From Nitrospinae bacterium RIFCSPLOWO2_12_39_16 (GTDB taxonomy: Bacteria; Nitrospinota; Nitrospinia; UBA9942), in assembly GCA_001805005.1 (NCBI GenBank), contig MHDO01000152.1:1-39636 (forward strand): a DNA stretch of 39,636 nucleotides, read 5' to 3'. The notes under the pieces were generated by a model. The model was not told the DNA's origin and did no database searches. It was given only the letters and a program-made list of their open reading frames with translations. The position numbers and the translations under genes are program-made. Positions 7,747 to 38,224 of the stretch are shown here, in pieces (position 1 is the stretch's first letter; every line of letters starts with the position of its first letter).

Positions 7747-7747
7747 T
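7618..7747. repeat. Inverted heptanucleotide repeat array (CAAGAAG)n / (TCTTGTT)n inside coding 5' end of the 26-heme cytochrome
   Basis: acaagaagcaagaagcaagaagc ... ttgcttcttgtatcttgtttcttacatcttgtttcttgcatcttg; period 7. Confidence 0.9.
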
Positions 7748-9445: not shown

Positions 9446-10128
9446 TTTATTGTCTCAATTATCTCCGAAACTACTCTTTTTGTAAGGGCGCTTATTGACC
9501 TTACCCGACCAAAGCCAAACACAGTAATATAATCGTCACCACTCTTCTTGTGCCTGACCATCCATAATATCTTCCCGCTTCTGATATCAATTAATTTAAC
9601 GCGGATAACTACTACAGGGGTTGTCAACCTGCCTCCCCAATCTCCACCTGTAAATTCTTCTACAACACCGATGAAAACTGCATCAATTTTTAATCTCATC
9701 CCTAATTTTTTTAACTGTTCCATATCCATCATTTGAACAGATTTTACTTTTTCGCTAATTAGAAACTTTTCTATATTACCCTTCTCCTCTATTTGAAATA
9801 TATCGCTTTTAAATAATATGGTATTAAATGTATTTGTAACAATCTCTCCTGCCTGCCGTTTTTCACTTTCATTTACAAATGGGAGCACCCCAACCCTCTT
9901 TATTTCAAATAGTCCTTTTTCTCTATTAAGATCAGAATAAATTATAACAGAAGAAGAACATCCATGAAATAATAATGGCAATATAAGGATTGCTATCAAA
10001 AACAAAAAACTGATTAATTTACAGATTTTGCCAACACCATTCCTGCCCCTGCTTTTGCAGGGGTAAACTTGTCCCTGCGAAAGCAGAGAGCAGAAATTTA
10101 TTTCCTTATACTGATTTTTGTTTTTCAC
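9442..10128 (-). CDS. CsgG/TolB-like lipoprotein, paralog 1
   Basis: Lipobox LFHGCSS; VGVLPFVNESEKRQAGEIVTNTFNTILFKSDIFQ...LKIDAVFIGVVEEF...VKLIDIRSGKILWMVRHKKSGDD. Confidence 0.65.
   Translation of the reverse strand: MKNKNQYKEINFCSLLSQGQVYPCKSRGRNGVGKICKLISFLFLIAILILPLLFHGCSSSVIIYSDLNREKGLFEIKRVGVLPFVNESEKRQAGEIVTNTFNTILFKSDIFQIEEKGNIEKFLISEKVKSVQMMDMEQLKKLGMRLKIDAVFIGVVEEFTGGDWGGRLTTPVVVIRVKLIDIRSGKILWMVRHKKSGDDYITVFGFGRVRSISALTKRVVSEIIETIK
10046..10063. repeat. Palindrome CCCCTGC-TTTT-GCAGGGG in the 5' coding end of a CsgG-like gene
   Basis: Perfect 7-bp stem, followed by a related CTGC-GAAA-GCAG hairpin. Confidence 0.7.
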
Positions 10129-10208: not shown

Positions 10209-10784
10209 TTAATACTTTCCAAAAAATGTCGCAAATACCTTTTTTACTACTTCGTTGCTTAATTCAATCTCACCTTTTTGCTCAATTCCAAATATTGATC
10301 TCATTAAACTGCTGCCTTTTTGAGAATGAAAACCCCGCCATAATGTCAGCCCGGAATTTGACTCTACCAGTCGAAGAGATAGGGAAACAACGGCATACTG
10401 TGAGCCTCCCCCACGGTTTTGACCGTATGACTCCACTGAACCAATAAAAATCGCCTGTACCCCAAGCTTCTCAGAAATTCTCTTGATGCCCTCAATGTCC
10501 AATGCAACAAGTTCTCCCTCTCTGAACCCCATTTCCCTAAAAACATCAACTACCACCTTATTAACTTCTCCATCTTCCGCCACTTCAAAAACACCGCTTT
10601 CAAGTATATTCATTACAATCATACTCTTAAGTTTCTCGCCAGCATACTTGTCATCCGTCAGATTATTAAGAGGAAGCACTGCAACCTTTTTAATATACTG
10701 AAAGTTTACATTAGTCCTGATATATTGTTTCGGAGATGTACCGCATCCACTATGAACAACTAAAAATCCAAATAAGGGAATCAA
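10209..10784 (-). CDS. CsgG/TolB-like lipoprotein, paralog 2
   Basis: Lipobox VHSGCG; VAVLPLNNLTDDKYAGEKLKSMIVMNILESGVFEV...LGVQAIFIGSVESYG...LRLVESNSGLTLWRG. Listed start is TTG; true start uncertain. Confidence 0.65.
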   Translation of the reverse strand: MIPLFGFLVVHSGCGTSPKQYIRTNVNFQYIKKVAVLPLNNLTDDKYAGEKLKSMIVMNILESGVFEVAEDGEVNKVVVDVFREMGFREGELVALDIEGIKRISEKLGVQAIFIGSVESYGQNRGGGSQYAVVSLSLRLVESNSGLTLWRGFHSQKGSSLMRSIFGIEQKGEIELSNEVVKKVFATFFGKY

Positions 10785-10919: not shown

Positions 10920-12983
10920 TCATCTGCGGATTAATAAAGCTATACTATATAAATTACTGCGGTCTCCTGTGCTGTTGTGAGTCAAAGTCGTAGTATAGCT
11001 TGAAGAAATATACAGATATCTGCTTATATTCCAGTAAATACTGCCTCCCATTGTCTCTGCGCCTGTTTGTGAAACATTGTAATTAATATTCATTTGCAAA
11101 CTGCCCGGCAGCCGTGTATTTATAGAGTAATTCTGCTTCGTCTCAGGAAGATGCTGAATATTGGCAGACAAATTTACAAACCGTGATGGAGTTATATTTA
11201 CCGTTGATGTTAGAGCTTCAGATTGAGAACTGCTCGTTTCTCTCCCGGTATCAGATGTGGAAGATGAAAATGCGCCATTAATGAGGATGTTTATGCTATT
11301 TTTCGGTATTAAGGTTAAATTTCCGTTAACTGAATTAGTTGCCGTTTTTGTTCCACTGATAAGGTCATCTGTTTTGCTTGATGTAAAACCTGTTCCAAGG
11401 TCAATACCAGAATACAATCTAAAGAACATATTTATATTTTCAGAAGTTGTTTCCGAAGTTTTATCATCCCCCGAAAGGGATTCAAAACGGCCAAGGGCAA
11501 TTGATCCATTTATAGTTTCCATTGGGTTTGTGCTTAATGAAAATGTATAATTATTTGAACCGATACTTTTGCTTGATGTTGATTCAGTTTTCTGACTTTG
11601 ATAGTTTAGAAAAAATGAGGCATATTTAGACATTGCATAGGACAATACTATCCCCTGATTGATATTCGTATCTTTGCGGTCAATAGGAGACTGTTTTGAT
11701 TCATCATAATTTATATTGTATGAAATACCCGTCTTCTCCGTTGGTCTTAGGCTCAGATTCATCCCGCCATATTGTCTATCAGTAATTGTCTCAACTGTAA
11801 CGCTGGTCTTTTTAGAGATTGACCCTATCGCCTCTATCTCCGTAACACTTATCTTCTGGGCTGAAGAATCATAAGTTGTATTTACCGCCTTAAAAAAGAG
11901 TGCATTTATAGGCACTGAAAAAACCAGTTTAAATCGTTTATTAACCTCATCATAGGAACTGTCCGATACAGTTGCAAAGCTCCAGATAAGCCCTGAGAGG
12001 TCATTACTATAATAAATATTCCATCCGAAATTCATATTTGCTATATTGCTATCCAATGTATCTATATATATATAAATAGTGTTTATTGTATCTGTATTTT
12101 TTAATTTCAAACCTATATTTCTATAAGAACCGTTTAAGTCAATTCCTGTATCCGAAGATTTATTATCATCAATTAAAGATGGGTAATCGGACAACTGCCC
12201 GTCGCCAGGCAAGGTATCTATCGCATAAAGCCCATTGCTTGCATCTTTTTTATCAGGAAAGGTCTGAGGCACACCAGATAAACTTATACTTGTAGAGGTT
12301 GAGTTTGTTACACCAACATTTGTGCTAATATTCAACCTGTTATCAAAAAAGGAGTTATTATAACTGACGGTCCCCAGATGTGTCGGGTTCTCTTGTTTTA
12401 TCTGTGAGACAAAATCATTCAATGTTGAACTGCTATAATTATACAACAAATTAAGACGTTTGATTGTGTAATCTGTGCTGGCACTCATATATGACTGTCT
12501 TGAATTAACAAGAGAAAATCTGTCTTTTGATTGCAATTCATTATAATTAAATCTCAATGAGGGAAAACCAGCAGGGGCTGTTGAGAAAATGGCATTTTTT
12601 GAGGTAGTATTTATACTGTTACCTGTTGCAAGAAAACGATCATTTACCTGATACCCAATATTTGAATTAAAATATTTATTATTCATATCCAAAAATAAAG
12701 AGGGGGCAATTGTGCTGTTTTCAGTTGAATCCACCTTGTTCTGAGATGCTCTTATATCCCCAGACAACCCCATTGTCCCTGTAATTTTTTTATTAAAAAC
12801 AAATGAATAAACCTGAGATAAAGTCGACTTGGTGGTCATCTTTCCTGCAAATTCATTCTCGCTCATTGTATAAATTACATCTCCATTCAAAGATAGACCA
12901 TCTGCAAAACTTCTATTTAAGGAACCTATCAAATATAAAATCGTTATTCCTGTTATAGTACCAACTCTTTTTATTATTCTCAC
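10920..12983 (-). CDS. Outer-membrane beta-barrel protein with internal jelly-roll-like insertion
   Basis: 687 aa; signal peptide; alternating amphipathic strands rich in Y/S/T/N (SIYWNISRYLYISSSYTTTLTHNSTGDRSNLYSIALLIRR at C-terminus). Confidence 0.72.
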   Translation of the reverse strand: MRIIKRVGTITGITILYLIGSLNRSFADGLSLNGDVIYTMSENEFAGKMTTKSTLSQVYSFVFNKKITGTMGLSGDIRASQNKVDSTENSTIAPSLFLDMNNKYFNSNIGYQVNDRFLATGNSINTTSKNAIFSTAPAGFPSLRFNYNELQSKDRFSLVNSRQSYMSASTDYTIKRLNLLYNYSSSTLNDFVSQIKQENPTHLGTVSYNNSFFDNRLNISTNVGVTNSTSTSISLSGVPQTFPDKKDASNGLYAIDTLPGDGQLSDYPSLIDDNKSSDTGIDLNGSYRNIGLKLKNTDTINTIYIYIDTLDSNIANMNFGWNIYYSNDLSGLIWSFATVSDSSYDEVNKRFKLVFSVPINALFFKAVNTTYDSSAQKISVTEIEAIGSISKKTSVTVETITDRQYGGMNLSLRPTEKTGISYNINYDESKQSPIDRKDTNINQGIVLSYAMSKYASFFLNYQSQKTESTSSKSIGSNNYTFSLSTNPMETINGSIALGRFESLSGDDKTSETTSENINMFFRLYSGIDLGTGFTSSKTDDLISGTKTATNSVNGNLTLIPKNSINILINGAFSSSTSDTGRETSSSQSEALTSTVNITPSRFVNLSANIQHLPETKQNYSINTRLPGSLQMNINYNVSQTGAETMGGSIYWNISRYLYISSSYTTTLTHNSTGDRSNLYSIALLIRR

Positions 12984-13072: not shown

Positions 13073-14566
13073 TTATTTTACTGAAACAATTCCATAAGGC
13101 TTTTTCCCTACTATAATTATCTTTTCTACAACTTCGGAGACAGGATTTATAAGTATCACCCTGTTGGAACTATAATCAGTGATATAAAGATGGTTTCTTC
13201 CTTCATCAATTGCTAGTCCTATCGGCTTACTTCCGGCATTTATGCTTCTCGTAATGACTGCAGACGACGGAATTAAAAAAGAAACCTGTCCAACACCATA
13301 ATTTGAAAGATAAATTCTGTTGTATTTTTCAGAATAAATTCCCTTTCGCGGATTAATACCTGCCTGTATTCTCCCCTTAATAGTTTTTGTAACGGTATCT
13401 ATAATTGTAATACTATCTGATTCGGCATTCAGGACATAAATGTTATTTCTTACAACTACAACATCTACAGGTGTTCTGTCAACATTTATGGTAGCCTTTA
13501 CTTCATCTGTTATAGAATCAATAACTGAAATGGAGTTTGACCCGCTGTTGGCTACATATACTTCCTGCCTTTCTGGATTGGCGGATACTCCAAGCGGAGC
13601 ATTGCCAACCCTTACACTCTTTATCTGAGATTTCATAAATGTATCTATAGCAGTAACATCATTAGACCCCCGATTCGTAATATATAGTTTTCCATGATTT
13701 CTCCTGTCGCTGTATGGAATCATAGCCATTTCAACAGGTTCAATTCCTGAACTAAATTGTATCCTGTCCCGGACAAAGTCCTGCGATGTATCAATAATTG
13801 ATATGCTATTTGACCTGGAATTTAAAACATACAACCTCTCTTGTTCCTGGCTTAAAACAAGACTTGTAGGATTCTTTTCTACACCTATTACACCAACTAC
13901 TCTATTTTCAAACCTATCAACAACCGATACATAATTTGAACCGCTGTTTGCAACATATAAAAGCAGTGTCTTTGGAGAAACTCTTTGAGATTCAATAGTT
14001 ATTGAAGGGCTAAAAAGATAGTTATTTGAGACAGATTTATCAGGTTCCCATGTTAAAAATATAGCCCTACTCTCACTGCTTCCTATACTTATAATATCCC
14101 CTTTGAGTTCTACCTCTCCATTCGGTTGAGGCAGTGCCAGTGTATGAAATTTTTCATTTCTCCTTACACTGGCATTGGAGATACGTATCATAACCCTGTC
14201 ATACTCTCCTTCCATTATATTTGATTCAGTTAACAGAACCTGATCCTTTGCTATATCAAGGGACCTTATTACAAATGGTTTTTCTGATAATTTAATCCAT
14301 CCCCCATCCCTTTGTTTGATTTCAATCTTCTCAATTGTAAAATTTATATCCTGCTGGTTAGAATTTGGAAGATAAAGGTAAAAAACCAATGTCCCCTCTG
14401 ACACCTCTTCTCTTTCAATCTTCATCCCTGTACAAGAGATAAGGATAAGAAGTAAGAAGCAAAAAACCAGAGGACAGAGGACAGAAGACAGAAGACAGAC
14501 TTCTGACTTCTGTCTTCTGACTTCTAACTTCTGGCTTCTGACTTCTAACTTCTGGCTTCTATTCAT
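13073..14566 (-). CDS. YVTN beta-propeller lipoprotein with N-terminal DUF4382-like domain
   Basis: Repeated LYVANSGSNYVSVVD / LYVLNSRSNSISIID / VYVANSGSNSISVID blades; N-terminal INFTIEKIEIKQRDGGW...MEGEYDRVMIRISNASV. Confidence 0.85.
   Translation of the reverse strand: MNRSQKLEVRSQKLEVRRQKSEVCLLSSVLCPLVFCFLLLILISCTGMKIEREEVSEGTLVFYLYLPNSNQQDINFTIEKIEIKQRDGGWIKLSEKPFVIRSLDIAKDQVLLTESNIMEGEYDRVMIRISNASVRRNEKFHTLALPQPNGEVELKGDIISIGSSESRAIFLTWEPDKSVSNNYLFSPSITIESQRVSPKTLLLYVANSGSNYVSVVDRFENRVVGVIGVEKNPTSLVLSQEQERLYVLNSRSNSISIIDTSQDFVRDRIQFSSGIEPVEMAMIPYSDRRNHGKLYITNRGSNDVTAIDTFMKSQIKSVRVGNAPLGVSANPERQEVYVANSGSNSISVIDSITDEVKATINVDRTPVDVVVVRNNIYVLNAESDSITIIDTVTKTIKGRIQAGINPRKGIYSEKYNRIYLSNYGVGQVSFLIPSSAVITRSINAGSKPIGLAIDEGRNHLYITDYSSNRVILINPVSEVVEKIIIVGKKPYGIVSVK
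14440..14563. repeat. Inverted heptanucleotide repeat array at 5' end of the YVTN protein gene
   Basis: agaggacagaggacagaagacagaagacag / cttctgacttctaacttctggcttctgacttctaacttctgg; period 7. Confidence 0.9.
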
Positions 14567-15227
14567 TTTTTATTTCTTTCACCTTATCCTTTTGTAACCG
14601 CTCCATATGACACCTGTAGCATTCCCTTAAAGGAAAGGCTATTTTACCATGACACCTGCCGCAATACTCTCCACTTAAAATTTTCCACATGGTCATCTCA
14701 GGATTACCACCCTTCTTTTGAACAAAAATACCCGGATGACAAATTTTACAACTTAACCAATATGTATGAATACTGTGAGGAAAGATGACATCCGTCATAA
14801 ATTCATTCTTAGCCTTGATTGATATAAGAAGGTCAATGGGATCATCATCTTCTTGCAAACCATCAATTGATGAAAGCGGAGAAATTATACCACTCCTCAC
14901 AGCCCCTGCCCAGTCAATTAAATCGTATTTGTCCCTTGGTAGAAGTGTAAGAGGAATAGCCCTTTGCTGGAGGAGAGATTGTGCTGTCACCTCATTCGCA
15001 GTTTTATACTTATATTCGTAAAACTGCTCTATGTAGCTATTTAAGGAGTTAGAGGAAGGGTTATCCTGATTTTCAACTGCATAAGATGGTGATATTAAAA
15101 AACAGATACTTAATTTACCACAGAGGACACAGAGAAAGAGGAAAGAACAAAGACCCGACCTTAGCCGCGAAGGACACAAAGGTAAAAATAATTTTAGGGT
15201 TTTTAATCTCTGTGCTCTCCGTGCCAT
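14559..15227 (-). CDS. Triheme c7-like cytochrome with N-terminal extension domain
   Basis: CKICH, CGRCH, CYRCH; FPHSIHTYWLSCKICHPGIF...GEYCGRCHGKIAFPLRECYRCH. Confidence 0.85.
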   Translation of the reverse strand: MARRAQRLKTLKLFLPLCPSRLRSGLCSFLFLCVLCGKLSICFLISPSYAVENQDNPSSNSLNSYIEQFYEYKYKTANEVTAQSLLQQRAIPLTLLPRDKYDLIDWAGAVRSGIISPLSSIDGLQEDDDPIDLLISIKAKNEFMTDVIFPHSIHTYWLSCKICHPGIFVQKKGGNPEMTMWKILSGEYCGRCHGKIAFPLRECYRCHMERLQKDKVKEIKNE

Positions 15228-15306: not shown

Positions 15307-16887
15307 CTAAAAATCGCTCTCCCCCCATCCAAATTGTAATTTTTCATTTCTCTTTGCAAACTTTTCCTTTTCTTTCTTTGAGAAAGCAATTGTCTGGTTT
15401 GAGGTTTTAAATATGTTTCCTGCTTTATCCACAGCCTTAAAAGCATACATTATCTTTCCACCACCTGCTGTCACTTCTCTGTTTTCAGATATTAAAGGTA
15501 TAATTAGCTTTTTAGCTACATTCCCTCTTCCGCTTAAATTCTTTATAATTTTTGAGTCCTCGCCCAATATTACAAATTCCCACTTCTCCATCATTTCATT
15601 TTCTTCGTAGTCAAGGTTAAAAATTACCACATCATTATCATCAGTTGCTTCAGCCTCTATTTTTACTGCCGGTGGTGTTGCATCCAGTATTATCTTCTTT
15701 TGAAAAACCCCTGCATTTCCTGCAGTATCCCATACCGTAAGGTTAAGATAATATATTCCATCATCATTTCTACTTCCTGCATTATTCTCACCTCTCCACA
15801 TAAGCTGCATAGGTAATGCACCAAATCCCCTCTCTCCTCTCACAAATTTATTTTCTTTATCCACTATTTCAACTTCCCACTTTTCTATAACCTCATTTGT
15901 TTTAAGGGTAAATATAATTGAATCCTTTTTTACAAGCCCGGCAGTAACATCTTTGTCTGTTGAAACTGTTACTTCTGGCGATACTGTATCAACCTTTACC
16001 TCCCCTACTGAAGGAAAATGAGAAATCTTATCATCAGACAGCACAGCAATAATATCTACAGGATATAAGCCATCTGCATAGGGAACGGTAATCTCGCCAT
16101 CATAATAATCACCATCTCCATCCTTCAAATCAAATTTCATTTCACCTATATAAGCCTGAACCTTCACTATTTTTTCTACAACAGATATAATTTTGACTGA
16201 TACCTTTGCAGACTTCCCCCCTCTGACAATTGCGGGAGAAATCTTTAAGCTCCCTATCTCAAAAAGATTATCATCTCTATTTTTCAAGAGATATTCCCTT
16301 GGTATCCCACCCACAATATTGCTAACAGCTACCGATCCAAGCTGAACAATCAATTTCACTCTACCAATACCAAGCAAGCCGGCAAAATCGCTTCCAGCAT
16401 AGGAAACGGTGTCCATCCATATTATTGAACAATCCCTTGTCCCAACAAGGCGAAGAGTTAATCCTACATATATTTCATTACTAACATTGGAATACTGGTC
16501 AATTGAACCTAAAACCACCGCATCAACTCCAAGCTCACGATTTAACTCAAGCGTTGTTATTCTGTCAATAAAACTCGTATTCCTAATTCTTCTCTTGGTC
16601 AAAAATTTATCCACATCTTCATATGGAACCAATTCAAACCCTCTTTTTTCAAGTTCTTTCTGAAGCAATGAATCTATAATTGCACGAGCATCTAAATTTC
16701 CAGAAATGTTTGCCATAGGAAGGACCACAATCCTATCTATTTTATGAACATCCTTTCCCACTTCTGCCTGAACAGCGGATGCAAAAAACAGTAAGCAGTA
16801 GGCAGTAAGCAGTAGGCAGTAAGCAGTAAACAAGAGATAAGTGGTCTTGCTTCTGGCTTCTGGCTTCTGACTTCTATCTTTTATCAT
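15307..16887 (-). CDS. CsgG/TolB-like N-terminal domain plus FlgD/Ig-like C-terminal domains, paralog 3
   Basis: IVVLPMANISGNLDARAIIDSLLQKELEKRGFELVPYEDV...LGVDAVVLGSIDQYS; C-terminal MQLMWRGENNAGSRNDDGIYYLNLTVWDTAGNAG. Confidence 0.65.
   Translation of the reverse strand: MIKDRSQKPEARSKTTYLLFTAYCLLLTAYCLLFFASAVQAEVGKDVHKIDRIVVLPMANISGNLDARAIIDSLLQKELEKRGFELVPYEDVDKFLTKRRIRNTSFIDRITTLELNRELGVDAVVLGSIDQYSNVSNEIYVGLTLRLVGTRDCSIIWMDTVSYAGSDFAGLLGIGRVKLIVQLGSVAVSNIVGGIPREYLLKNRDDNLFEIGSLKISPAIVRGGKSAKVSVKIISVVEKIVKVQAYIGEMKFDLKDGDGDYYDGEITVPYADGLYPVDIIAVLSDDKISHFPSVGEVKVDTVSPEVTVSTDKDVTAGLVKKDSIIFTLKTNEVIEKWEVEIVDKENKFVRGERGFGALPMQLMWRGENNAGSRNDDGIYYLNLTVWDTAGNAGVFQKKIILDATPPAVKIEAEATDDNDVVIFNLDYEENEMMEKWEFVILGEDSKIIKNLSGRGNVAKKLIIPLISENREVTAGGGKIMYAFKAVDKAGNIFKTSNQTIAFSKKEKEKFAKRNEKLQFGWGESDF
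16788..16882. repeat. Composite heptanucleotide repeat array at 5' end of CsgG/Ig-like gene
   Basis: acagtaagcagtaggcagtaagcagtaggcagtaagcagta ... cttgcttctggcttctggcttctgacttct; period 7. Confidence 0.9.
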
Positions 16888-16897: not shown

Positions 16898-18043
16898 CTA
16901 TTGATTATGACACTGCTGGCATGTATCTCTCATCATTGTGCCAGCCCCCCCTGATGCTGTCGGTGCCCCAAATATTAAATTAGAATGATTTGGAGAACCA
17001 TGCGACCTGTGACAGGTAAGACAAAACGGCTGTTCATCGCCGCCACTGTCAAGCCCATCCGGATTTATAGCACGCACCCGATTAAAACCAGTTATTGATG
17101 CAAAATTTGCCGGGACTGTATGCCCATTTCCAACCCCAACTGAAATCTTACCTACAGGATGACGAACCCATTGAGTATCTGTCCCGCTATCGCCTGTAAC
17201 ACTGCCACCCAACTTCCCACTTCCATAACCAATATCATCACCACCATACCCGTTAGAATTATAAAATTTTACATGACATTTACCACAAAAACCAGCTATT
17301 TGTTTAGTACTACTCCTAAATGTCATGTTAGATGTGGAATATTGGTTGGCAGGGTTACTCCCATCACAATTCCCATCTATAACCGCCTGTGCAATTGAGG
17401 ATATACCATCCCATACTCCATTATTATAGGTTACTATTTTATATGAATCCGCTGGTGTGCTATCTCCCGGTTCTCTGAAAGAGGGGTCTAATGGTTCGGG
17501 CCTAAAATTTCTGTAATTACTATTTCCATGCTGGTCATGGCAGTATATACAGCTGAAAACAGGACCGTATTTTGTCTGTGCTGTAGTCCAGTCACTCCCT
17601 ACATAACCCGGTGGCTTTATCCCTGTCAAATCAACTCCGATACTGTGCCGTTTATCTTCGTCAGGTGTTCCGCCTGTATTAAAATCACCTGCCGAAGCGT
17701 TATAAATAGGACTAAACAGGTCAGGTGCACCGATATTAATAGGATCTCCATCATGACAGTATTTACAAAGATTAACCACTGAATCTGCCCTAAGTAACTT
17801 TTCGTAAGTATTTATTCCTCCACTATAAATCAAAGATACACTACCCTGCGTGCCATGCATAACATGACACTGGGCACATGCAAGCGTAGTTTCAGCAGGA
17901 ATACCTGATTTATGATAATCTCCGGCAAAGGAATCATTAGCAAACAGTAAGCAGTAGGCAGTAAGCAGTAAGCAATATATAGTTTTTTTCTGCCTACTCC
18001 ATACTGCATACTGCCTACTTCTATTTGTTTCTTGTCTTTTCAT
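16898..18043 (-). CDS. Hexaheme c-type cytochrome, OmcS-like motif order (copy 1)
   Basis: CAQCHVMHGTQG, CKYCHDG, CIYCHDQHGNSNYRNF, CGKCH, WVRHPVG, CLTCHRSHGS, CQQCHNQ at C-terminus: six CXXCH. Confidence 0.85.
   Translation of the reverse strand: MKRQETNRSRQYAVWSRQKKTIYCLLLTAYCLLFANDSFAGDYHKSGIPAETTLACAQCHVMHGTQGSVSLIYSGGINTYEKLLRADSVVNLCKYCHDGDPINIGAPDLFSPIYNASAGDFNTGGTPDEDKRHSIGVDLTGIKPPGYVGSDWTTAQTKYGPVFSCIYCHDQHGNSNYRNFRPEPLDPSFREPGDSTPADSYKIVTYNNGVWDGISSIAQAVIDGNCDGSNPANQYSTSNMTFRSSTKQIAGFCGKCHVKFYNSNGYGGDDIGYGSGKLGGSVTGDSGTDTQWVRHPVGKISVGVGNGHTVPANFASITGFNRVRAINPDGLDSGGDEQPFCLTCHRSHGSPNHSNLIFGAPTASGGAGTMMRDTCQQCHNQ
17943..18024. repeat. Inverted heptanucleotide repeat array at 5' end of hexaheme cytochrome gene (copy 1)
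   Basis: aacagtaagcagtaggcagtaagcagtaagc ... ctgcctactccatactgcatactgcctact; period 7. Confidence 0.9.
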
Positions 18044-18044: not shown

Positions 18045-18923
18045 TTATTCCACCTTCTTAAACATACTAACCCTTCCCCTGCCTTTTTCTACTACATAAA
18101 AGTTCTCTCCCTTAAAATCAATGCCAAGGGGGTAATAGAGGTTTTCCCTGGAATTTCCATAAATACCAAATCCACTCAGTCTTTTTCCTTCATCATTAAA
18201 ACCTGTCACCCGATGCTTAAAGGCATCAACTACCCATATCATACCGTCATCATCGACTTTTATTCCAGAAGGCATAGAAAAATTCTGTTCCCCTTCCCCA
18301 ATATGCCCAAAACCTGCAAGGTATTCGCCTTTTGTATCAAATATCCTTACGACAGGGTCAGCACTCATTACCGACACATAAATCTTTCCACTCTTTGCTG
18401 CAATACCGCCAATTGATTTAAACAGATTTCTGCCGCCAAAGTTAAATTGATATTTCCCATCTTTATCAAATACACAAATCTTTAAAGAATTTCTATCAAC
18501 AACAAGAAAACCTACCCCATCCATAACCGCCATCTTACCTGGTGTAAATCCCTCATAAGGAGGCTCAATGCTTCCAACCTTTTCTCCCCTGATATTAAAA
18601 ATCTCTATATAATTTTTACCTTCTCCACTCATATAGATATAATTATTTGAAACAAAAATATCAATGGGGGATGATACCCCCTTTTCTTTTCCAAACCGAA
18701 AAACAGGCGTCCCATCAAGTTCAAAAATATAGATATTGTTCCCTCCATTATCAACAACATATAGTTCATCATCTTCTATAAAAATTGAGGATAATCCCTC
18801 AAATCTATATTCATCTGAAAATCTGTCAATAGCGCTGATAAAATAGAAACTCGAAGGTGCGGATTCTACCTTAGCTATAAGAATAATCAGAATTCCACAT
18901 GTTAAAAAGAATCTTTTCATCAT
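18045..18923 (-). CDS. NHL-repeat beta-propeller exported protein
   Basis: 292 aa; signal peptide; repeats such as FSMPSGIKVDDDGMIWVVDAFKHRVTGFNDEGKRLSGFG and YYPLGIDFKGENFYVVEKGRGRVSMF. Confidence 0.85.
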   Translation of the reverse strand: MMKRFFLTCGILIILIAKVESAPSSFYFISAIDRFSDEYRFEGLSSIFIEDDELYVVDNGGNNIYIFELDGTPVFRFGKEKGVSSPIDIFVSNNYIYMSGEGKNYIEIFNIRGEKVGSIEPPYEGFTPGKMAVMDGVGFLVVDRNSLKICVFDKDGKYQFNFGGRNLFKSIGGIAAKSGKIYVSVMSADPVVRIFDTKGEYLAGFGHIGEGEQNFSMPSGIKVDDDGMIWVVDAFKHRVTGFNDEGKRLSGFGIYGNSRENLYYPLGIDFKGENFYVVEKGRGRVSMFKKVE

Positions 18924-19035: not shown

Positions 19036-19051
19036 AGCAAAGAATATGCCA
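19036..19051 (-). promoter_or_regulatory. Sigma54 (-24/-12) promoter candidate upstream of NHL/hexaheme operon
   Basis: Minus strand TGGCATATTCTTTGCT versus consensus TGGCACGNNNNTTGCW; GG-N10-GC spacing; start codon at 18923. Confidence 0.72.
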
Positions 19052-19057: not shown

Positions 19058-20521
19058 TTACTTTCCAATCAAAAACTCCACTCTTCTATTAATCTTTCTC
19101 CCCTCTTCAGTGTCATTATCGGCAATTGGTCTTGATTCTCCAAAGCTTATAGTGATAATTCTTGAGGGGGCAATACCCTTATTAGTGAGGTATGCCTTTA
19201 CCGCATCTGTTCTCGCCTGTCCAAGTTGCAGATTATTAACTTCTGCCCCCATATTATCAGTATGCCCGGTGATATGCAATTTATATGTCGGTTTCTTTAT
19301 CAGCAACTCGTATAATTTATCTAAAAATTCAAAGGAAGATTTTTTTATAATAACCTCCCCACTTTCAAATTCCAGATTTTTGAATACATCTGCCAATATA
19401 TCTTCCTCCTGCTTTTCAATTTTTATCGGCTCAATTTCTTTCTCAACAGACTGTGGCTCAACTACTTTCTCAATAACAGGCTCAACCTTTATTGGTTCGG
19501 TTGCCTTACCCCCCTCGCTCAATCCCTCTCCACTTGTGGAAGAAGGGAGGGGTGAGGGGATAGATTCAACAGTTTCTGGCAGTTTACCCTTACTAATTTG
19601 CTGAACAACCTTTTCTTCTGGCATAACAAGCTCATATACCTGAACCCTTGCATTACCCGTATCACAAACATATATCTTGCCATTTTCACCTATTTTAACA
19701 TCCGAGGGCCATGAAAGGTTTTCAGGGTTTCTGCCGGCCCCTCCAAACTCTGCTATTGGTTTACCATTCCTATCAAAGATTATTACAACAAACCTGTTTG
19801 TATCTACAACAAATAATCTCTCTCCATCTGTATCAATATTTGACGGCATACTAAAACCGCCGAACAAGCTTGATATAATGCCAAACATGAAAAGAAATTT
19901 ACCATCTTCCTTATTATAAACTGATACACGAAATAGTGCCGGGTCAAGAAGATAAAACCTCTCTGAATCTGTAGTAATTGCCTTTGCGTTCAAAAACTCC
20001 CCTTCATTACTACCCTTTTTCCCAAACTGAAATAAAAATTTACCTGCACTATCAAAGACAATAATCCTGCTTAATCTTCCATCACCTATATAAATATAGC
20101 CATTTTCATCTATGTGCAGCGACTGGATAGATAAAAGTGTGAAATCTGGCACAGAAGAAAGGTCGAACTTCCTCAGATATTCTCCCCTATAGTTAAGGAT
20201 ATTTATCTCACCTGCATCAGATAAATAAATATTCCCATCCTTTGTTACAGAGAAAATCTGTATAGAATTTGCAAGTGGGATTTTAAAGACTGCTATACCA
20301 TCTTCATTGATAATTATGATTTCTTTGCTCTTGCTGGCAACATAAAGCTCGCCCTGCTGATGGTCAATATGAAGTTTTGAAGGAGCTCCCCCTCCCATTG
20401 ATTTTGCTGTGTAAGAGGTAATATGTCTTACATCAATCTTTGAGGCGGCTTCTATATCAACTGATGCAAATATCAATATAGCTATGACAAAAAATATTGA
20501 ACGGGTTATATATATATACAT
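19058..20521 (-). CDS. NHL beta-propeller fused to C-terminal OmpA peptidoglycan-binding domain
   Basis: 487 aa; NHL blades, linker, then YKLHITGHTDNMGAEVNNLQLGQARTDAVKAYLTNKGIAPSRIITISFGESRPIADNDTEEGRKINRRVEFLI. Confidence 0.9.
   Translation of the reverse strand: MYIYITRSIFFVIAILIFASVDIEAASKIDVRHITSYTAKSMGGGAPSKLHIDHQQGELYVASKSKEIIIINEDGIAVFKIPLANSIQIFSVTKDGNIYLSDAGEINILNYRGEYLRKFDLSSVPDFTLLSIQSLHIDENGYIYIGDGRLSRIIVFDSAGKFLFQFGKKGSNEGEFLNAKAITTDSERFYLLDPALFRVSVYNKEDGKFLFMFGIISSLFGGFSMPSNIDTDGERLFVVDTNRFVVIIFDRNGKPIAEFGGAGRNPENLSWPSDVKIGENGKIYVCDTGNARVQVYELVMPEEKVVQQISKGKLPETVESIPSPLPSSTSGEGLSEGGKATEPIKVEPVIEKVVEPQSVEKEIEPIKIEKQEEDILADVFKNLEFESGEVIIKKSSFEFLDKLYELLIKKPTYKLHITGHTDNMGAEVNNLQLGQARTDAVKAYLTNKGIAPSRIITISFGESRPIADNDTEEGRKINRRVEFLIGK
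19509..19560. repeat. GC-richer inverted repeat in the NHL-OmpA inter-domain linker
   Basis: ccccctcgctcaatccctctCCACttGTGGaagaagggaggggtgagggg. Confidence 0.65.
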
Positions 20522-20582: not shown

Positions 20583-21800
20583 TTATCTGTTATGACACAA
20601 CTGACATCCTTTTGTTGATGAAACAGCATTACCTGTCTGACTACCTGTCCCAACAGCGGATGTATAATCCCATCTTAGATTATCATTATAAGGACCGCCA
20701 TGTGCAAAATGACAGGATAGACACATAACCCTATCGGTTGAATTATTTGTTTTGTAAAATACCCTATTAGACGATGAAGCACTTGCAACAGGAAGGTAGT
20801 AACCTGCTGTTGTAACATCATAATTAGTAGTATCTATGATAGTTACACCTGCCCCAGAAGTTGTTGAACCATCGCCAGCCAATGTGTTATTAACAGGATG
20901 CCTTTTCCAATCATCACCTGAGGCATTGGTCGTTACTATAGCCTCATGCCAGTTATCATGACACTGGGCACACCATCTTGAAATGCCATTTGACCCTCCA
21001 CCATAGGAATTGCTATTTGCAGTATCATCAGCAGCTGATCCTGTAGTAGACGCAGTTTTGATTACCGGCCATATATTATTCTTATTTGATGCCCCGCCTA
21101 TTGCAAGTATAGTATCCTGAAAGTTTGTCCCATTAATACCTCCAACCCAACTCGTATGGTCTGCATCAGTAAGTTCAACACCTGCATTACTTCCTGCATT
21201 TGTTGCACTCATCCTCAGATTTCTGAACTTATTTATAGCAGTATCGGCTGCATTGGCAGTTCCATGAGGGTCATGGCAAGATGTGCATGAGAAACCTGCT
21301 ATTTGCGTACTATCTGCACTACCCGGCGGTATGACATTTGCGAGACCAATGGAATGCCCTCTTCCAAGCGCAGTACTGCCTCCATCTGTACTCAATGTAA
21401 AATCTGCATTAACCTCTGGAAAGAAGTTACCACCAGCACCTATACCAGTCAGGTGATCCGTCTGTGTCCATAGTGTGCCAGTTGCAAGGTGCACCTTTGG
21501 TGGTTTTACATTCTTTGGCGCAAATTGAACATCTCCATTAGGGCCTTGATCAGAATGACACTGCAGACAAAGCCTGTGAATATTTTCTCTGCTGGATACA
21601 TCCGCCCTAAGCAAAACGAGTGAGCCGCCGGATGCACCACCAAGCGTATTAGTACCACCTCCCTGGCTGTTATGCATTGTATGACAGTTACCGCATGTCA
21701 AATCACCTGCACCTTTATGAACTGCAAAAACCGATGTATTTATTAATAAGAAACCAGTAATCAAAACAACAACTCCTAACCATTTTTTCATGTCTTTCAT
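20583..21800 (-). CDS. Hexaheme c-type cytochrome, OmcS-like (copy 2), nanowire candidate
   Basis: 405 aa; CGNCHTMHNSQGG, CLQCHSDQG, GFSCTSCHDPHG, RWCAQCHDNWHE, WKRHPVNN, VMCLSCHFAHGG, CQLCHNR; six CXXCH plus 11 other His. Confidence 0.85.
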   Translation of the reverse strand: MKDMKKWLGVVVLITGFLLINTSVFAVHKGAGDLTCGNCHTMHNSQGGGTNTLGGASGGSLVLLRADVSSRENIHRLCLQCHSDQGPNGDVQFAPKNVKPPKVHLATGTLWTQTDHLTGIGAGGNFFPEVNADFTLSTDGGSTALGRGHSIGLANVIPPGSADSTQIAGFSCTSCHDPHGTANAADTAINKFRNLRMSATNAGSNAGVELTDADHTSWVGGINGTNFQDTILAIGGASNKNNIWPVIKTASTTGSAADDTANSNSYGGGSNGISRWCAQCHDNWHEAIVTTNASGDDWKRHPVNNTLAGDGSTTSGAGVTIIDTTNYDVTTAGYYLPVASASSSNRVFYKTNNSTDRVMCLSCHFAHGGPYNDNLRWDYTSAVGTGSQTGNAVSSTKGCQLCHNR

Positions 21801-21875: not shown

Positions 21876-21891
21876 AGCATATATCATGCCA
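21876..21891 (-). promoter_or_regulatory. Sigma54 promoter candidate for the OmcS-like gene
   Basis: Minus strand TGGCATGATATATGCT versus TGGCACGNNNNTTGCW; GG-N10-GC spacing; GGAGG RBS and ATG at 21800. Confidence 0.72.
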
Positions 21892-22085: not shown

Positions 22086-22421
22086 TTATACATGACATTT
22101 TTTACAGGTTGACATATCCCATGAAGACTTCCCATTATGGCATTTTCCACAATATTCACCTTCTACATTCTTTTTCATTGTAACCAAATTTGCACCTTTT
22201 TTCTCTTTAAAAACAGATGGATGGCAATCTTTACATTTCAATTTACTATGCTTTGAATGGGAAAAGCGGGCAGGAGGCATATCTGCCTTTTTCCTGCTCG
22301 CCTTTTGATTTTCAAATACAATAACATCCTGCGGTTTTTTCTCCGCCGCAAATAGAGGAAAAATCCACACAATTGACACTACATAAAAAATTATAAAAAT
22401 TTTTAAAGTAGTTTTCATCAA
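22086..22421 (-). CDS. Triheme c7-like cytochrome
   Basis: CKDCH, CGKCH, CKKCH; RFSHSKHSKLKCKDCHPSVFKEKKGANLVTMKKNVEGEYCGKCHNG. Confidence 0.88.
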   Translation of the reverse strand: MMKTTLKIFIIFYVVSIVWIFPLFAAEKKPQDVIVFENQKASRKKADMPPARFSHSKHSKLKCKDCHPSVFKEKKGANLVTMKKNVEGEYCGKCHNGKSSWDMSTCKKCHV

Positions 22422-22433: not shown

Positions 22434-23183
22434 CTACTTAGATACTGTCCTCAGAGTAATAGTATCGTCAGGTTTATTCTTCTTTGGAAAGGTATGGCAT
22501 CTCTTACAATCTGCAAGAGGGAATGCAATCTTATTATGACACCTGCCGCACCACTTGCCGCCAGCCATTTCTATCATCTTTACATCATTCCCGCCTGCTA
22601 CCGGCTCAAATATAGGTCCACCGACACTCGCGTGACAAACCTCACATTTTAACCACCATGTATGGATAAAATGGGGAAATATAACATTATCCATAAAATC
22701 GCTTTTGGTCTCAAATAATATATTCATATCAAGTATCGCTTCATCATCAGGTTTTGCATTTGAGTCTAAATCAAAACGGGGGTCAATCGTCTTATCCCTA
22801 ACAACCTGTGCCCAATTAATCAACTTATACTTATCCAATGGAAGTCCTGAATCTGTAAGAGCAGTAGGATGCCATCCTGCCCCAATTTTTGCAAATGTAG
22901 ATGCAACTCCTGATTTATTGATATCACCCGTTCCAGCCATTTCGCCCTTTGTATCAAGGTAAATAAGACTTTTTTTATCTTTTGGGTCAAGAGTCTTTGT
23001 AGAAGGTGTCTCTACTGTAGGAGTTGGAGGTGCTTTAGGCTGTTCTACTACTACTGGTGGAGCTGCCTTTTCAGCAGCCTTCTTTGATGGTTTTTTTTCA
23101 GCCGCGTCAACTGAAATACAAAATATTGCAATAAATATTGTAATTAATAATGATATTTTTTTTAAAATTTTATTAATCTTCAT
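22434..23183 (-). CDS. Triheme c7-like cytochrome with N-terminal extension domain
   Basis: CEVCH, CGRCH, CKRCH; LPLDKYKLINWAQVVRDKTIDP...FMDNVIFPHFIHTWWLKCEVCH, parallel to 14559-15227. Confidence 0.87.
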   Translation of the reverse strand: MKINKILKKISLLITIFIAIFCISVDAAEKKPSKKAAEKAAPPVVVEQPKAPPTPTVETPSTKTLDPKDKKSLIYLDTKGEMAGTGDINKSGVASTFAKIGAGWHPTALTDSGLPLDKYKLINWAQVVRDKTIDPRFDLDSNAKPDDEAILDMNILFETKSDFMDNVIFPHFIHTWWLKCEVCHASVGGPIFEPVAGGNDVKMIEMAGGKWCGRCHNKIAFPLADCKRCHTFPKKNKPDDTITLRTVSK

Positions 23184-23762: not shown

Positions 23763-23778
23763 AGCAATTAATATGCCA
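23763..23778 (-). promoter_or_regulatory. Sigma54 promoter candidate for triheme cytochrome operon
   Basis: Minus strand TGGCATATTAATTGCT versus TGGCACGNNNNTTGCW; next gene starts at 23586. Confidence 0.7.
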
Positions 23779-23876: not shown

Positions 23877-25271
23877 TTAATCTGTAGCATCTGCTTTTAA
23901 ATATCCAATCTTCTTCAACCTATATCTTAAGGCATATCTGCTCAGGCTTAGAAGTTTTGCAGCCCTGGATTGATTTCCCCCGGCTTTTTTGAGTGCTTGA
24001 ATTAAAAGATTTTTTTCTACTTCTTCAAGTGGAACTCCACCTTCCGGAAGGACAAAACTTGATTGTTGCTGTTCTTCACCTTTTACAGGGACACCCTCTA
24101 CCACTTCAATAGGTAGATGCTCAATTAATATCTCATCTTTGCTCTCAAGGATAATCGCCCTTTCAATCACATTTTTCAGTTCTCTCACATTTCCGGGCCA
24201 ATGATATGAGAGAATAGCCTGTTCAGCCTTTGATGATAAACCTTTAACATCTTTCCTGAACTCCTGATTGAACTTATCTATAAAGTACTTAGCAAGAATT
24301 AGTATATCTCCTTTTCTCGCCCTCAGCGGCAGTATAAAAATCGGTATTACTCTGAGGCGGTAATATAAATCCTCTCTGAACCTCCCATTCTTAATCTCTT
24401 CTTTTAGATTCTTATTGGTTGCCGCTATAATCCTGACATCCACCTCAATATCCGAAGCCCCTCCAACCCTCTTAAACCGCTTATTCTCAATAAATTTTAA
24501 CAGTTTCGTCTGTGTCATAAGTAGCATATCTCCGATTTCATCAAGAAGGACACTCCCGCCATCTGCAAGCTCAAATAGCCCTATTTTTTTCGCCTTTGCA
24601 TCTGTAAATGCGCCTTTTTCATAGCCAAAAAGCTCACTCTCAACAAGTGTATCTGGCAATGCAGTGCAATTTATATCCATGAATGGTCTTGCTGACCGTC
24701 TGCTCGCATAATGTATAGCCCTTCCTACAAGGTCTTTACCTGTCCCGCTCTCCCCTTCTATTAAAACAGTAGTTGCATCGCTCTGAACTATCTTTTGAAT
24801 CATGTCCAGAACATCTTTAATCTCTTTACTCTCCCCGATTATACTATCAATACTGTGGGTCTTCTTTTCCTTTTCAAGTCGCCATGTAACCTCCCTGTTG
24901 ACCCTTTTAGACTCAATAGCCTTCTTTGCAATTATAGCGACCTCAGTGAGGTTAAAGGGCTTGCTGATATAATCATAAGCCCCAAGCTTCATGGCAGTTA
25001 CTGCTGTATCAACTGAACCTGAGCCTGTAATCATAATTACAGGGATATCTTCATTTAAACCAATAATTTCCTTCAATATCTGAATTCCACCTATATCAGG
25101 CAAGAAGACATCAACAAATGCGATATCCGGCATATCTTCCCTTATAGAATTGATTGCCGATTCGCCATTTTCTGCAGTCTTGACTTCAAAGCCCTCTTTT
25201 GTCAGTTTTTCCTGCAATGTCCATGCAATAATATTTTCATCATCAACTATCAACGCCCTTGCCTTTTTCAT
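23877..25271 (-). CDS. Sigma54-dependent response regulator (REC-AAA+-Fis HTH, NtrC family)
   Basis: 464 aa; GESGTGKDLVGRAIHYASRR, ESELFGYEKGAFTDA, C-terminal GNQSRAAKLLSLSRYALRYRLKKIG. Confidence 0.95.
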   Translation of the reverse strand: MKKARALIVDDENIIAWTLQEKLTKEGFEVKTAENGESAINSIREDMPDIAFVDVFLPDIGGIQILKEIIGLNEDIPVIMITGSGSVDTAVTAMKLGAYDYISKPFNLTEVAIIAKKAIESKRVNREVTWRLEKEKKTHSIDSIIGESKEIKDVLDMIQKIVQSDATTVLIEGESGTGKDLVGRAIHYASRRSARPFMDINCTALPDTLVESELFGYEKGAFTDAKAKKIGLFELADGGSVLLDEIGDMLLMTQTKLLKFIENKRFKRVGGASDIEVDVRIIAATNKNLKEEIKNGRFREDLYYRLRVIPIFILPLRARKGDILILAKYFIDKFNQEFRKDVKGLSSKAEQAILSYHWPGNVRELKNVIERAIILESKDEILIEHLPIEVVEGVPVKGEEQQQSSFVLPEGGVPLEEVEKNLLIQALKKAGGNQSRAAKLLSLSRYALRYRLKKIGYLKADATD

Positions 25272-26815
25272 AATAAAACCTCACTATCGTTATATTCGGC
25301 ATCTTCCTCAACTATATTTAATGAATTCTCAAGGGGTAATACTATTACAAACTTACTACCTTTGTCAACAACACTTTCTACCTTAATTGTCCCCTTATGT
25401 TTTTCCACTATCCTTAAGCTGATTGGCAGTCCCAACCCGCTGCCATCCTTCTTTGTCGTAAAAAACGGGGTAAATATATTCTTTATAATTTCAGGAGAAA
25501 TACCGCATCCTGTATCAGAAATCTCTATCTGAATGTATTCGCAGCCATTGGGTTTATCTGTTGATGTTGTAATTGTCAGCTTGCCATTTTCCTTCATAGA
25601 TTCAACAGCATTGAGGCAGACATTGAGTAATACCTGCTGCATCTTCTCTCCATCAATCAAGATATTTGGAATATTACTAAGGCTTGTGTCAATAGATATT
25701 TTACCCTTTCTGCACTTGAATTCAAGCAGATTAATTGTATCTGTTATCAGTTTATTCAAATCGTGCATCTTTGGATTTACAACAATAGGCTTTGAGAACA
25801 TGAGAAGGTCTTTTAGCATTGAATCCAACCTCTGAACCTCCTTAACTATCATATTAATAATCTCCTTTTTGGGGTCATCTGACGGAAGATCTTCATCAAT
25901 CAGTTGAACTGCACCACTGATTCCAGTAATAGGGTTTTTTATCTCATGTGCCAAAACAGCCGATATCCTGCCGAGAGATGCGAGGTGGCTCTCCTGTTTC
26001 AGCCTGTCAAGCATTATATTAAAATGCCTTGCCATATATCCAATCTCATCATTTGACTTCAAACCAATCCTCTGGTTTTTATTGCCATGTTCAATCTCCT
26101 TTATTGTCTTAATAACTGCATTCAGCGGCTTAGAAACCAGATTATAAACAATCCAGCTTATTACAATTACCAAAATGATTACAGTAGCTACAGATATCCA
26201 TAACATGATAATAAGGTGGTTATTTAGATGCTCAGCAAATTTTTCGTCGGATAAGGAAATTTTTAAAATACCACGAATCTTTTCTTTATCGCCATGACAT
26301 TTATGACATGCAGGCTTATTTAAAACTGGCAGATAATAATCATAGAAAACCTTTCCGTTTTTATCATAGCCATAGAACTCTTTCTCCTTCCCTTCTCTCA
26401 AGACATCTTTTATCTTCTCATCGCTGACCACATCTGCCTTTCCCTCTTCTAAATTCATATACTCCTCTATGACATCATGGGAAAATTGGTAAATCTCCTT
26501 TACCTTATAAAATGTCTCAAAATCCTTAAATGCCTCTTTTCCGTTTGTTCTGATTACCTGTAAATTTTTTATCCCTGGAATTTTTTTAAATTTATGGATT
26601 AGATCTCGGACAATAAAAGGCCTTTTTCCCTCCATTTCTTTTTCTATCATTGTAGAAATAGAATTTGCATATACCTTCGTCTTGGTAAGCCAGTCGTCAT
26701 GGAATATGTCCCTCTCCATTCTTTCTACGGTATATATCATGATGGAAAAAATTATGACAATAGCTATAATGATTGGCAATATTATTTTTACCTGCAGTCT
26801 GTTAAAAAAAATCAT
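25268..26815 (-). CDS. Sensor histidine kinase with periplasmic c-heme sensor domain, HAMP, HisKA, HATPase
   Basis: 515 aa; YYLPVLNKPACHKCHGDKEKIRGILKISLS in the periplasmic region; LAHEIKNPITGISGAVQLI; DTGCGISPEIIKNIFTPFFTTKKDGSGLGLPI. Confidence 0.93.
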   Translation of the reverse strand: MIFFNRLQVKIILPIIIAIVIIFSIMIYTVERMERDIFHDDWLTKTKVYANSISTMIEKEMEGKRPFIVRDLIHKFKKIPGIKNLQVIRTNGKEAFKDFETFYKVKEIYQFSHDVIEEYMNLEEGKADVVSDEKIKDVLREGKEKEFYGYDKNGKVFYDYYLPVLNKPACHKCHGDKEKIRGILKISLSDEKFAEHLNNHLIIMLWISVATVIILVIVISWIVYNLVSKPLNAVIKTIKEIEHGNKNQRIGLKSNDEIGYMARHFNIMLDRLKQESHLASLGRISAVLAHEIKNPITGISGAVQLIDEDLPSDDPKKEIINMIVKEVQRLDSMLKDLLMFSKPIVVNPKMHDLNKLITDTINLLEFKCRKGKISIDTSLSNIPNILIDGEKMQQVLLNVCLNAVESMKENGKLTITTSTDKPNGCEYIQIEISDTGCGISPEIIKNIFTPFFTTKKDGSGLGLPISLRIVEKHKGTIKVESVVDKGSKFVIVLPLENSLNIVEEDAEYNDSEVLL

Positions 26816-27082: not shown

Positions 27083-28243
27083 ATGGAAAAAAGAACCGTT
27101 TTTATTATAGATGATGAGGAGATTATAAGAAAGACCCTCTCTATCCATCTGACAAAGGGAAATTATTCGGTCATTCAGTCAGCTGGCGGCTCTGGGATAT
27201 TTGAGGAGCTAAAAAATAACAATTATGAGCTTGTTATCAGTGATATCAGAATGCCTGAGGTTAATGGGCTGCAGATATTAGAATATGTCAAGAAGAATTA
27301 TGCTAATATCCCTGTCCTAATCCTCACAGGTTTGATGGATTTCAATATTACCATTGAAGCCATGAAAATGGGTGCCTTTGATTTCCTTATAAAACCAATT
27401 ACGAAAGAGCACCTCTTAAATACTGTCCAGAACGCACTTCATAATAGAGACCTCCTTATTCAGAATAAAAAATTAGAAAAAGAAAATCTTGAATATCGCA
27501 CCATTCTGGAAAATAAGGTAGAAGAGAGAACAGAGCAGCTCAACAAAAAGACTGTTGAACTTGAAAATGCTTATGAAACACTGCAAAAAATGAATTTTCA
27601 GATGGTAAAGGTGCTTGCTGAGGCAATTGAAGCAAAAGATAAGTATACGAGGGGGCATTGTGACAGAATGCGTTTCATCTGCCTTAAGATTGGTGAATTA
27701 CTTGGTATTTCAGGAGGGGAAAGGACTGACCTTGAATTTGCCGCCATCCTGCACGACCTTGGTAAAATTGGAATTGCCGATTCAATCTTAAACAAGATAG
27801 ACACCCTTAATGAAAATGAGTTTGATATGATAAAAGAACACTCTTTAATTGGCGAGAAGATTATCTCGGAGATAAGCACATTTAAAAATGTAAGCATGAT
27901 TATAAAACATCACCATGAAAATTATGATGGAAGCGGATATCCGGGAGGACTCAAAGGCAGCCAGATCCCCCTCCTCTCACGAATTATTGCAGTAGCGGAT
28001 GTATTTGATGCGCTGACAAGTAAACGCCCATATCGTGAATCCCTCTCCATAGAGAGTGCCATTTCTGAGATAAAAAATATATCTGGGACAAAATTGGACC
28101 CGTCTATTGTCCAGCTTCTAATCAACAACAAAGAGTACACAAAACTAAAACCTAATCAGCCACAGAAACACAGTGACACAGAGGAAAAAAATAAATTATT
28201 AAAAAAATCTCTGTGTCTCCATGCCTATGGCAATTCTCTGTAA
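27083..28243 (+). CDS. Response regulator with HD-GYP phosphodiesterase domain
   Basis: 386 aa; REC domain, AAILHDLGKIGIAD, IIKHHHENYDGSGYPGGLKGSQIPLLSRIIAVADVFDALTSKRPYR. Confidence 0.95.
   Translation: MEKRTVFIIDDEEIIRKTLSIHLTKGNYSVIQSAGGSGIFEELKNNNYELVISDIRMPEVNGLQILEYVKKNYANIPVLILTGLMDFNITIEAMKMGAFDFLIKPITKEHLLNTVQNALHNRDLLIQNKKLEKENLEYRTILENKVEERTEQLNKKTVELENAYETLQKMNFQMVKVLAEAIEAKDKYTRGHCDRMRFICLKIGELLGISGGERTDLEFAAILHDLGKIGIADSILNKIDTLNENEFDMIKEHSLIGEKIISEISTFKNVSMIIKHHHENYDGSGYPGGLKGSQIPLLSRIIAVADVFDALTSKRPYRESLSIESAISEIKNISGTKLDPSIVQLLINNKEYTKLKPNQPQKHSDTEEKNKLLKKSLCLHAYGNSL
28159..28231. repeat. CACAGAG-family inverted repeat encoding the C-terminal tail of the HD-GYP protein
   Basis: gccacagaaacacagtgacacagag ... 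tctctgtgtctccatgcctatggc. Confidence 0.75.
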
Positions 28244-28258
28244 TTTCTTATTGCTTGT

Positions 28259-30685: not shown

Positions 30686-30700
30686 GGAAATTATAAAATT

Positions 30701-30800
30701 AACCACAGGTTTTTTAAACCGTTTAAGCCGTTTAAACCGTTTAAACTGTTTGAACCGTTTTTAATGAATCTGTGTTAATCTGTGTCCATCTGTGGTTTCA
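30701..30800. repeat. Intergenic compound repeat: 9-nt period core in an ACCACAG/CTGTGGT frame
   Basis: aaccgtttaagccgtttaaaccgtttaaactgtttgaaccgttt, then atctgtgttaatctgtgtccatctgtggt. Confidence 0.8.
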
Positions 30801-30834
30801 TTAGGTTTTGTTCTTGACTTTTTACGAGATAGTT

Positions 30835-32839: not shown

Positions 32840-32849
32840 TAAACCACTT

Positions 32850-33015: not shown

Positions 33016-33067
33016 AAAATTTTTATAATTTCATATGATAAAACACAAGACAAAAGGAAGTGTTGCT

Positions 33068-38214: not shown

Positions 38215-38224
38215 AATTTTCTAT

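Follow-up and report, generated by a model that had tools for sequence, protein, structure and literature searches.

Does a hexaheme cytochrome encoded by an uncultured groundwater bacterium build filaments of the kind made by OmcS, or does it share little more than heme motifs with the protein that does? The question is raised by a gene, here called hexA, on a 39,636-nucleotide contig (MHDO01000152.1; this whole stretch is the window) of Nitrospinae bacterium RIFCSPLOWO2_12_39_16, which an earlier note had put forward as encoding a candidate nanowire subunit. Features of the window lie on the minus strand unless marked (+). Judged from its sequence, hexA is a good nanowire candidate, and its status as a subunit remains that of a candidate.

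hexA encodes a secreted protein with six heme-binding motifs

The hexA gene (20583..21800) is an intact 405-aa open reading frame with an ATG start and six CXXCH motifs, at residues 36, 78, 172, 277, 360 and 399, arranged in the OmcS order exactly as the earlier note had stated; 20,000 shuffles of its composition gave a mean of 0.013 CXXCH motifs and never more than two. The local motifs that the note had listed are likewise present: CGNCHTMHNSQ near the N terminus, CTSCHDPHG at the third heme, WCAQCHDNWH at the fourth, an RHP at H301-P302, CLSCHFAH at the fifth heme and CQLCHNR at the C terminus. A hydrophobic signal peptide covers about residues 1-26, ends near VFA-VHKG and has no lipobox cysteine; the mature N terminus would be about VHKGAGDLTCGNCHTMH, with a predicted start at or beside V27-H28, where mature OmcS begins with F-H.

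The likeness of hexA to OmcS is specific

In a phmmer search of PDB sequences, OmcS was the only match to hexA at E values up to 1 (E=1e-10, residues 30-393), with an identity of 26% overall and 18% outside the heme motifs and ligands. A family profile of 69 relatives, searched against 177,635 PDB sequences, placed OmcS first (3.6e-107) and OmcE second (4e-5); the family alignment includes members of the OmcS clade, meaning that the OmcS score is not independent of them, and for this reason we built an OmcS-clade profile without hexA. This profile gave hexA 94.8 bits (E 5.8e-29) and other multiheme proteins of the same loci about 21 bits at most. Motifs GDF, PGG and RW are common to hexA and OmcS.

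Structure prediction pointed the same way, with less force. The AF2 model of hexA was of mediocre to moderate quality (pLDDT 64.7, pTM 0.67), and Foldseek returned 6ef8 as its only PDB match (E=9e-4, probability 0.97); with a TM score of 0.40 and an rmsd of 13, despite 6ef8 being the only match, this predicted-model support for an OmcS-type fold is real but weak.

The sole PDB match, the profile margin, the register of the histidines described below and an osc-type neighbourhood that is conserved among loci together make the likeness specific to OmcS, as the description "OmcS-like hexaheme" had claimed; generic CXXCH similarity is ruled out as an explanation by the profile margin and the histidine register. 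On this evidence from sequence, hexA adds a divergent new member to the OmcS family. Two other identities were considered and rejected: OmcE, in view of the six hemes of hexA and a profile similarity that is only partial; and OmcZ, an octaheme cytochrome with a long CX14CH heme-1 loop (PMC9473688), in view of six hemes that are all plain CXXCH. OmcZ was matched neither by hexA nor by the family profile in the PDB sequence searches.

Twelve histidines are kept in register across the family

We mapped the ligands on a 105-row family alignment. Exactly twelve His columns are near-universal: those of the CXXCH motifs (OmcS His13, 51, 144, 243, 332 and 404; hexA His40, 82, 176, 281, 364 and 403) and six distal ones (OmcS His2, 16, 110, 147, 257 and 335; hexA His28, 43, 149, 179, 301 and 367). 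All twelve are kept in 94 of the 105 members. The statement that hexA has enough extra histidine for bis-His ligation can be sharpened accordingly: the protein contains 17 His in total, and exactly six distal ones are family-conserved, giving twelve candidate axial ligands for six hemes. The His2, 110 and 257 columns lie outside the motifs neighbouring a CXXCH, yet are conserved in register, whereas just 3, 19, 1 and 7% of rows, respectively, keep OmcS His53, 63, 139 and 309, whose counterparts in hexA are not His; the His247 column is intermediate (66%).

hexA His43 aligns with OmcS His16, which Wang et al. in 2019 reportedly identified as the donor to heme 5 of the neighbouring filament subunit. 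The twelve axial ligands of OmcS are all His, eleven of them from within the subunit and one, that of heme 5, from the neighbour (Filman et al., PMC6584659; for the inter-subunit ligation also PMC7096707). Conservation of His43 makes ligation of heme 5 between subunits a candidate feature of hexA. A His16-type ligand occurs in almost the whole family, including paralogues without a demonstrated wire, and is therefore by itself no proof of polymerisation. Three hexahemes lack it (L085:7896-9293, L091:7890-8915 and L092:1159-2220), and these are possible natural non-filament forms.

In four pentaheme members, from Desulfobulbaceae/Desulfobacteraceae (L032:2952-4160, L050:7908-8948, L061:4492-5715 and L082:8007-9035), the heme-3 CXXCH has been lost, and with it the His2 position. 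This joint loss points to His2 as the distal ligand of heme 3 and lends support to the ligand map; the four form one clade in the tree, meaning that the loss may have been one evolutionary event. Their existence also suggests that there are natural five-heme versions of the OmcS fold.

hexA branches outside the OmcS clade

In our gene tree, a quick search with SH-aLRT as the sole support measure, one 66-row clade (SH-aLRT 97) held OmcS together with the Geobacter-type hexahemes that adjoin the osc block (OscC position), and hexA and hexB, a second family hexaheme in the window, fell outside it in two other groups. hexA is therefore a family member and not an OmcS orthologue (GSU2504): its position fits, but the tree places it in a separate deep clade. 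The same holds for hexB as an OscC orthologue, which position favours and the tree does not, and the sequences indicate that hexA and hexB are probably not the OmcS/OscC pair.

Besides some Nitrospinota, the hexA clade takes in MAGs, from groundwater or elsewhere, that bear the title "Deltaproteobacteria bacterium". Among named records, Nitrospinota groundwater MAGs (loci L016 and L023) come closest, and the nearest relatives beyond the class carry the "Deltaproteobacteria bacterium" title. Strong matches occur in only 6 of the 78 genomes of the class (its own, two of the same genus, one other of the same family and two of a second family), meaning that the trait is patchy within it.

An osc-type companion cluster surrounds hexA

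On one side of hexA lie a sensor histidine kinase (25268..26815; HATPase, HisKA and HAMP, with one CXXCH, CHKCH, in its sensor region), the counterpart of GSU2507; an NtrC-type sigma54 response regulator (23877..25271; Sigma54_activat 1.8e-67, receiver and Fis HTH), the counterpart of GSU2506; and three triheme c7-type cytochromes matching TIGR04257 (23206..23586, 2.4e-17; 22434..23183, 2.2e-15; 22086..22421, 1.8e-17). On the other side are an NHL beta-propeller with a C-terminal OmpA domain of the peptidoglycan-binding type (19058..20521; Pfam NHL/DUF5128, OmpA 8e-21), a second NHL beta-propeller (18045..18923; Pfam NHL) and hexB (16898..18043; six CXXCH), which heads an osc-like block. Between hexB and the rest of this block come an LpoB/GNA1162-like protein with a FlgD-like Ig region (15307..16887; Pfam), whose homologues stand beside hexahemes across phyla, and a further triheme cytochrome (14559..15227; NCBIfam TIGR04257 nanowire_3heme, 1.4e-17).

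The block continues with a YNCE/YVTN-type beta-propeller in the OscD position (13073..14566; Pfam and synteny); a 687-aa candidate outer-membrane beta-barrel (10920..12983), which had no Pfam match and is a putative barrel whose homologues adjoin the YNCE propeller in many loci; a GNA1162-like lipoprotein (10209..10784; Pfam and synteny); a putative lipoprotein (9442..10128) with no Pfam match and with phmmer homologues in the same position; an OscH-like PpiC/SurA-type prolyl isomerase with two rotamase domains (7727..9445; Pfam Rotamase and SurA_N, synteny); and a 26-heme cytochrome with 26 CXXCH in 13 paired-CXXCH units (5722..7746), the counterpart of GSU2495/OscI, whose homologues stand beside family hexahemes in many phyla. 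One cluster thus holds the osc/omcS companion set of sigma54 regulator, kinase, hexahemes, propeller, putative barrel, lipoproteins, prolyl isomerase and 26-heme cytochrome.

Homologues of these genes surround family hexahemes in Thermodesulfobacteriota, Krumholzibacteriota, Acidobacteriota, Rokubacteria, Gemmatimonadota and others. In 27 distant loci, each 15 kb or longer, a plain count made without a random-locus control found the GNA-type gene in 23, the isomerase in 19, the YNCE propeller in 16, the 26-heme-type protein in 15 and the NtrC-type regulator in 13. By gene content, the hexA cluster is the omcS/osc companion cluster seen across phyla. In three MAGs, including one Gemmatimonas-titled and one Zixibacteria, very large cytochromes with 42 CXXCH take the place of the 26-heme protein beside OmcS-family hexahemes (L037:3392-6544, L056:3500-6601 and L088:2950-6063).

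hexB is the more distant of the two hexahemes: all 12 ligand His align, but it scores 17.5 bits against the OmcS-clade profile compared with 94.8 for hexA, it had no significant match in the PDB sequence search, and its AF2 model (pLDDT 48) was too poor for a fold search.

The propeller-OmpA gene lies directly downstream of hexA here and is also found in L018, L020, L022 and L023, which makes it a conserved feature of part of the hexA clade; the OmpA fusion is absent in L016 and in all three OmcS-clade propellers tested. With this distribution it is a distinctive partner of hexA in terms of gene content. Since OmpA domains commonly bind peptidoglycan, the propeller-OmpA protein is a reasonable candidate for the role of filament anchor.

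Other genes of the window and genome

Directly 3' of the 26-heme gene, at 4380-5709 (-), lie a cytochrome b (PF00033/PF13631) and a small His-rich protein, a possible quinol-side partner of the electron path. On the opposite strand, 27083-39316 (+) holds a chemosensory-type cluster with an HD-GYP response regulator, a sensor kinase, a CheR-like protein, two CheW-like proteins, a chemoreceptor, a CheA hybrid and a CheB-like protein, all assigned by eye from translations except the chemoreceptor. The latter (33834-35354, +) has one CXXCH in its sensor region, as does the kinase at 25268-26815 (-); both regions resemble Mcp40H-type sensors with borderline Pfam scores, which suggests heme-c redox or gas sensing by kinase and chemoreceptor next to the nanowire locus. 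Two small adjacent genes at 851-1557 (-) have, by eye, the look of a HEPN/nucleotidyltransferase (MNT) toxin-antitoxin pair. Elsewhere in the genome, contig C7 carries an OscJ-like cytochrome (L104:3385-4629, -; 414 aa, 15 CXXCH and one CX3CH) adjoined by a gene for a 308-aa putative propeller. An OmcE-like tetraheme was suspected on contig C149, where the sequence is a three-heme fragment at a contig end.

hexA has its own sigma54-like promoter and terminator

Sigma54-like sites with at most one mismatch number five in the window against 1.2 expected, and five were reached in one of 100 shuffles. Three of them lie, correctly oriented, in the gaps before the triheme operon (TGGCATATTAATTGCT, 23763..23778, no mismatch), before hexA (a -24/-12 element, TGGCATGATATATGCT, 21876..21891, one mismatch) and before the unit of the second NHL propeller and hexB (TGGCATATTCTTTGCT, 19036..19051, no mismatch). 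The triheme-operon site is identical in L016; that of the NHL-hexB unit is conserved in L016 (no mismatch) and L023 (one); and the hexA site is of the same position class in both. Similar sites precede hexahemes at two Geomonas loci (L053 and L059), L046 and L041, and none was found in the more distant hexA-clade loci that we checked.

Directly 3' of hexA, an intrinsic terminator (20563-20532, -) combines a 14-pair stem with a T-run, and a terminator-like hairpin stands in this place in all eight hexA-clade loci inspected. Both signals that had been proposed for hexA, an own sigma54-like promoter and an intrinsic terminator, are thus in place and recur in relatives, which would fit a product needed in bulk.

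A probable filament subunit, and what else hexA might be

We think it reasonably probable that, in this groundwater Nitrospinota bacterium, hexA supplies the structural subunit of a cytochrome filament of the OmcS type, and this lineage probably makes protein nanowires. A heme-sensing kinase and the NtrC-type regulator would switch on the three sigma54 units; after export, hexA would receive its six hemes, fold with help from the prolyl isomerase and cross the outer membrane by way of the barrel, lipoproteins and beta-propellers. The filament would grow by head-to-tail stacking, in which His43 of one hexA subunit ligates heme 5 (His364) of the next and the hemes form a continuous chain; electrons would reach this chain from the periplasm through the triheme and 26-heme cytochromes. 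hexB, in an OscC-like role, could be base, cap or second filament, and the purpose of the whole may be respiration to minerals or partner cells. Identity of 26%, placement in a separate clade, a pLDDT of 64.7 and a TM score of 0.40 count against this filament reading, and there is dispute over whether long-range current runs through cytochrome filaments in vivo (PMC11077965).

Of four Geobacter paralogues, OmcS alone is known to form a wire (PMC12977616). The main rival is therefore that hexA is an OmcS-like hexaheme at the outer surface or outside the cell that does not polymerise, serving as an electron carrier or as base or cap where hexB, or no protein at all, makes the filament; OmcT, OmcJ and OscC may be precedents. 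Sequence cannot tell those paralogues apart, hexA branches outside the OmcS clade, and the hexahemes of L085, L091 and L092 imply that the fold tolerates non-filament forms. hexA nevertheless keeps the His16 position, has the promoter and terminator expected of a bulk subunit, and scores far above hexB with the OmcS profile; we therefore hold a non-polymerising hexA to be possible, though on the unlikely side. A periplasmic or soluble multiheme shuttle, similar to OmcS through convergent CXXCH spacing and with no filament function, would account for the low identity outside the heme motifs, given that multiheme proteins drift fast, and some of these reach about 20 bits with the OmcS profile. 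hexA's own score with that profile, the register of His2, 110 and 257, the motifs common with OmcS and the osc-type synteny all speak against a shuttle, which we consider highly improbable.

The filament could also serve electron uptake, by oxidation of Fe(II), metallic iron or partner cells, in place of export. Nothing in a cytochrome wire itself fixes the direction of flow, and related Nitrospinota classes have been described as oxidisers of sulfur and nitrogen (PMC10839748). Against this, a locus of the same layout serves Fe(III) respiration in Geobacter, and uptake seems doubtful to us. As it concerns direction and is compatible with the filament reading, our confidences need not add up to one. 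A bolder version of the filament reading, which we offer tentatively and expect rather to be wrong, is that the hexA clade is a separate nanowire lineage whose filament the propeller-OmpA protein ties to the cell wall, with hexA and hexB forming distinct filaments or a filament and its base. If true, wire and peptidoglycan would be joined by a dedicated anchor, which would account for both the site and the means of attachment. For the general question of what holds cytochrome filaments to the cell, the propeller-OmpA neighbour supplies an answer that can be put to the test.

In a 2024 comparative-genomics paper on Nitrospinota (PMC10839748), a term search turned up neither multiheme cytochromes nor extracellular electron transfer; a full OmcS-type locus would thus give these uncultured groundwater Nitrospinota an additional, respiratory lifestyle. 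A relative this divergent with an intact ligand pattern also shows what selection preserves in such a wire: the twelve His and the order of the hemes, and not the surface of the protein.

Comparison with known systems

The nearest characterised protein is OmcS of Geobacter sulfurreducens (GSU2504; PDB 6EF8/6NEF), which has six CXXCH in identical order, shares the CHTMHNS, CHDPHG, WCA-CH, HP and CLSCH-AH motifs, and like hexA has a signal peptide without lipobox and a sigma54 regulator, kinase and osc block nearby. Mature hexA is slightly shorter, at about 379 residues compared with 407, and having a propeller-OmpA fusion as neighbour is a further difference. OmcE (PDB 7TFS) also uses an inter-subunit His and has family-profile similarity over hemes 1-3 (E 4e-5), but it is a tetraheme of different fold with no full-length similarity to the six-heme hexA.

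At the level of the locus, the omcS region of G. sulfurreducens comprises GSU2494, GSU2495 (26 hemes), GSU2501, omcT, omcS, GSU2506 (sigma54 regulator) and GSU2507 (kinase) (PMC3495685, PMC10599522, PMC12977616). Its osc block has been linked to OmcS maturation and secretion (PMC12977616, PMC13194489) and is proposed to act in OmcS folding, secretion and morphology (PMC13194489, citing Shen et al. 2025). As OscC (GSU2501) heads that block, so hexB heads the one described here, and both blocks contain a propeller, lipoproteins, a prolyl isomerase, a 26-heme cytochrome and a barrel, the latter putative in the block with hexB. hexB and the OscC-position hexahemes do not group in the tree, however; the LpoB-like and triheme genes behind hexB are extra relative to the osc cluster, and the 16-heme OscJ-like component lies on contig C7, apart from the main cluster. 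The oetABI/OmcX/OmcS-like cassettes of sulfate-reducing ANME partners (PMC10553843) belong to a different phylum and likewise combine OmcS-like hexahemes with large cytochromes and an outer-membrane barrel, a likeness drawn at the level of the cassette.
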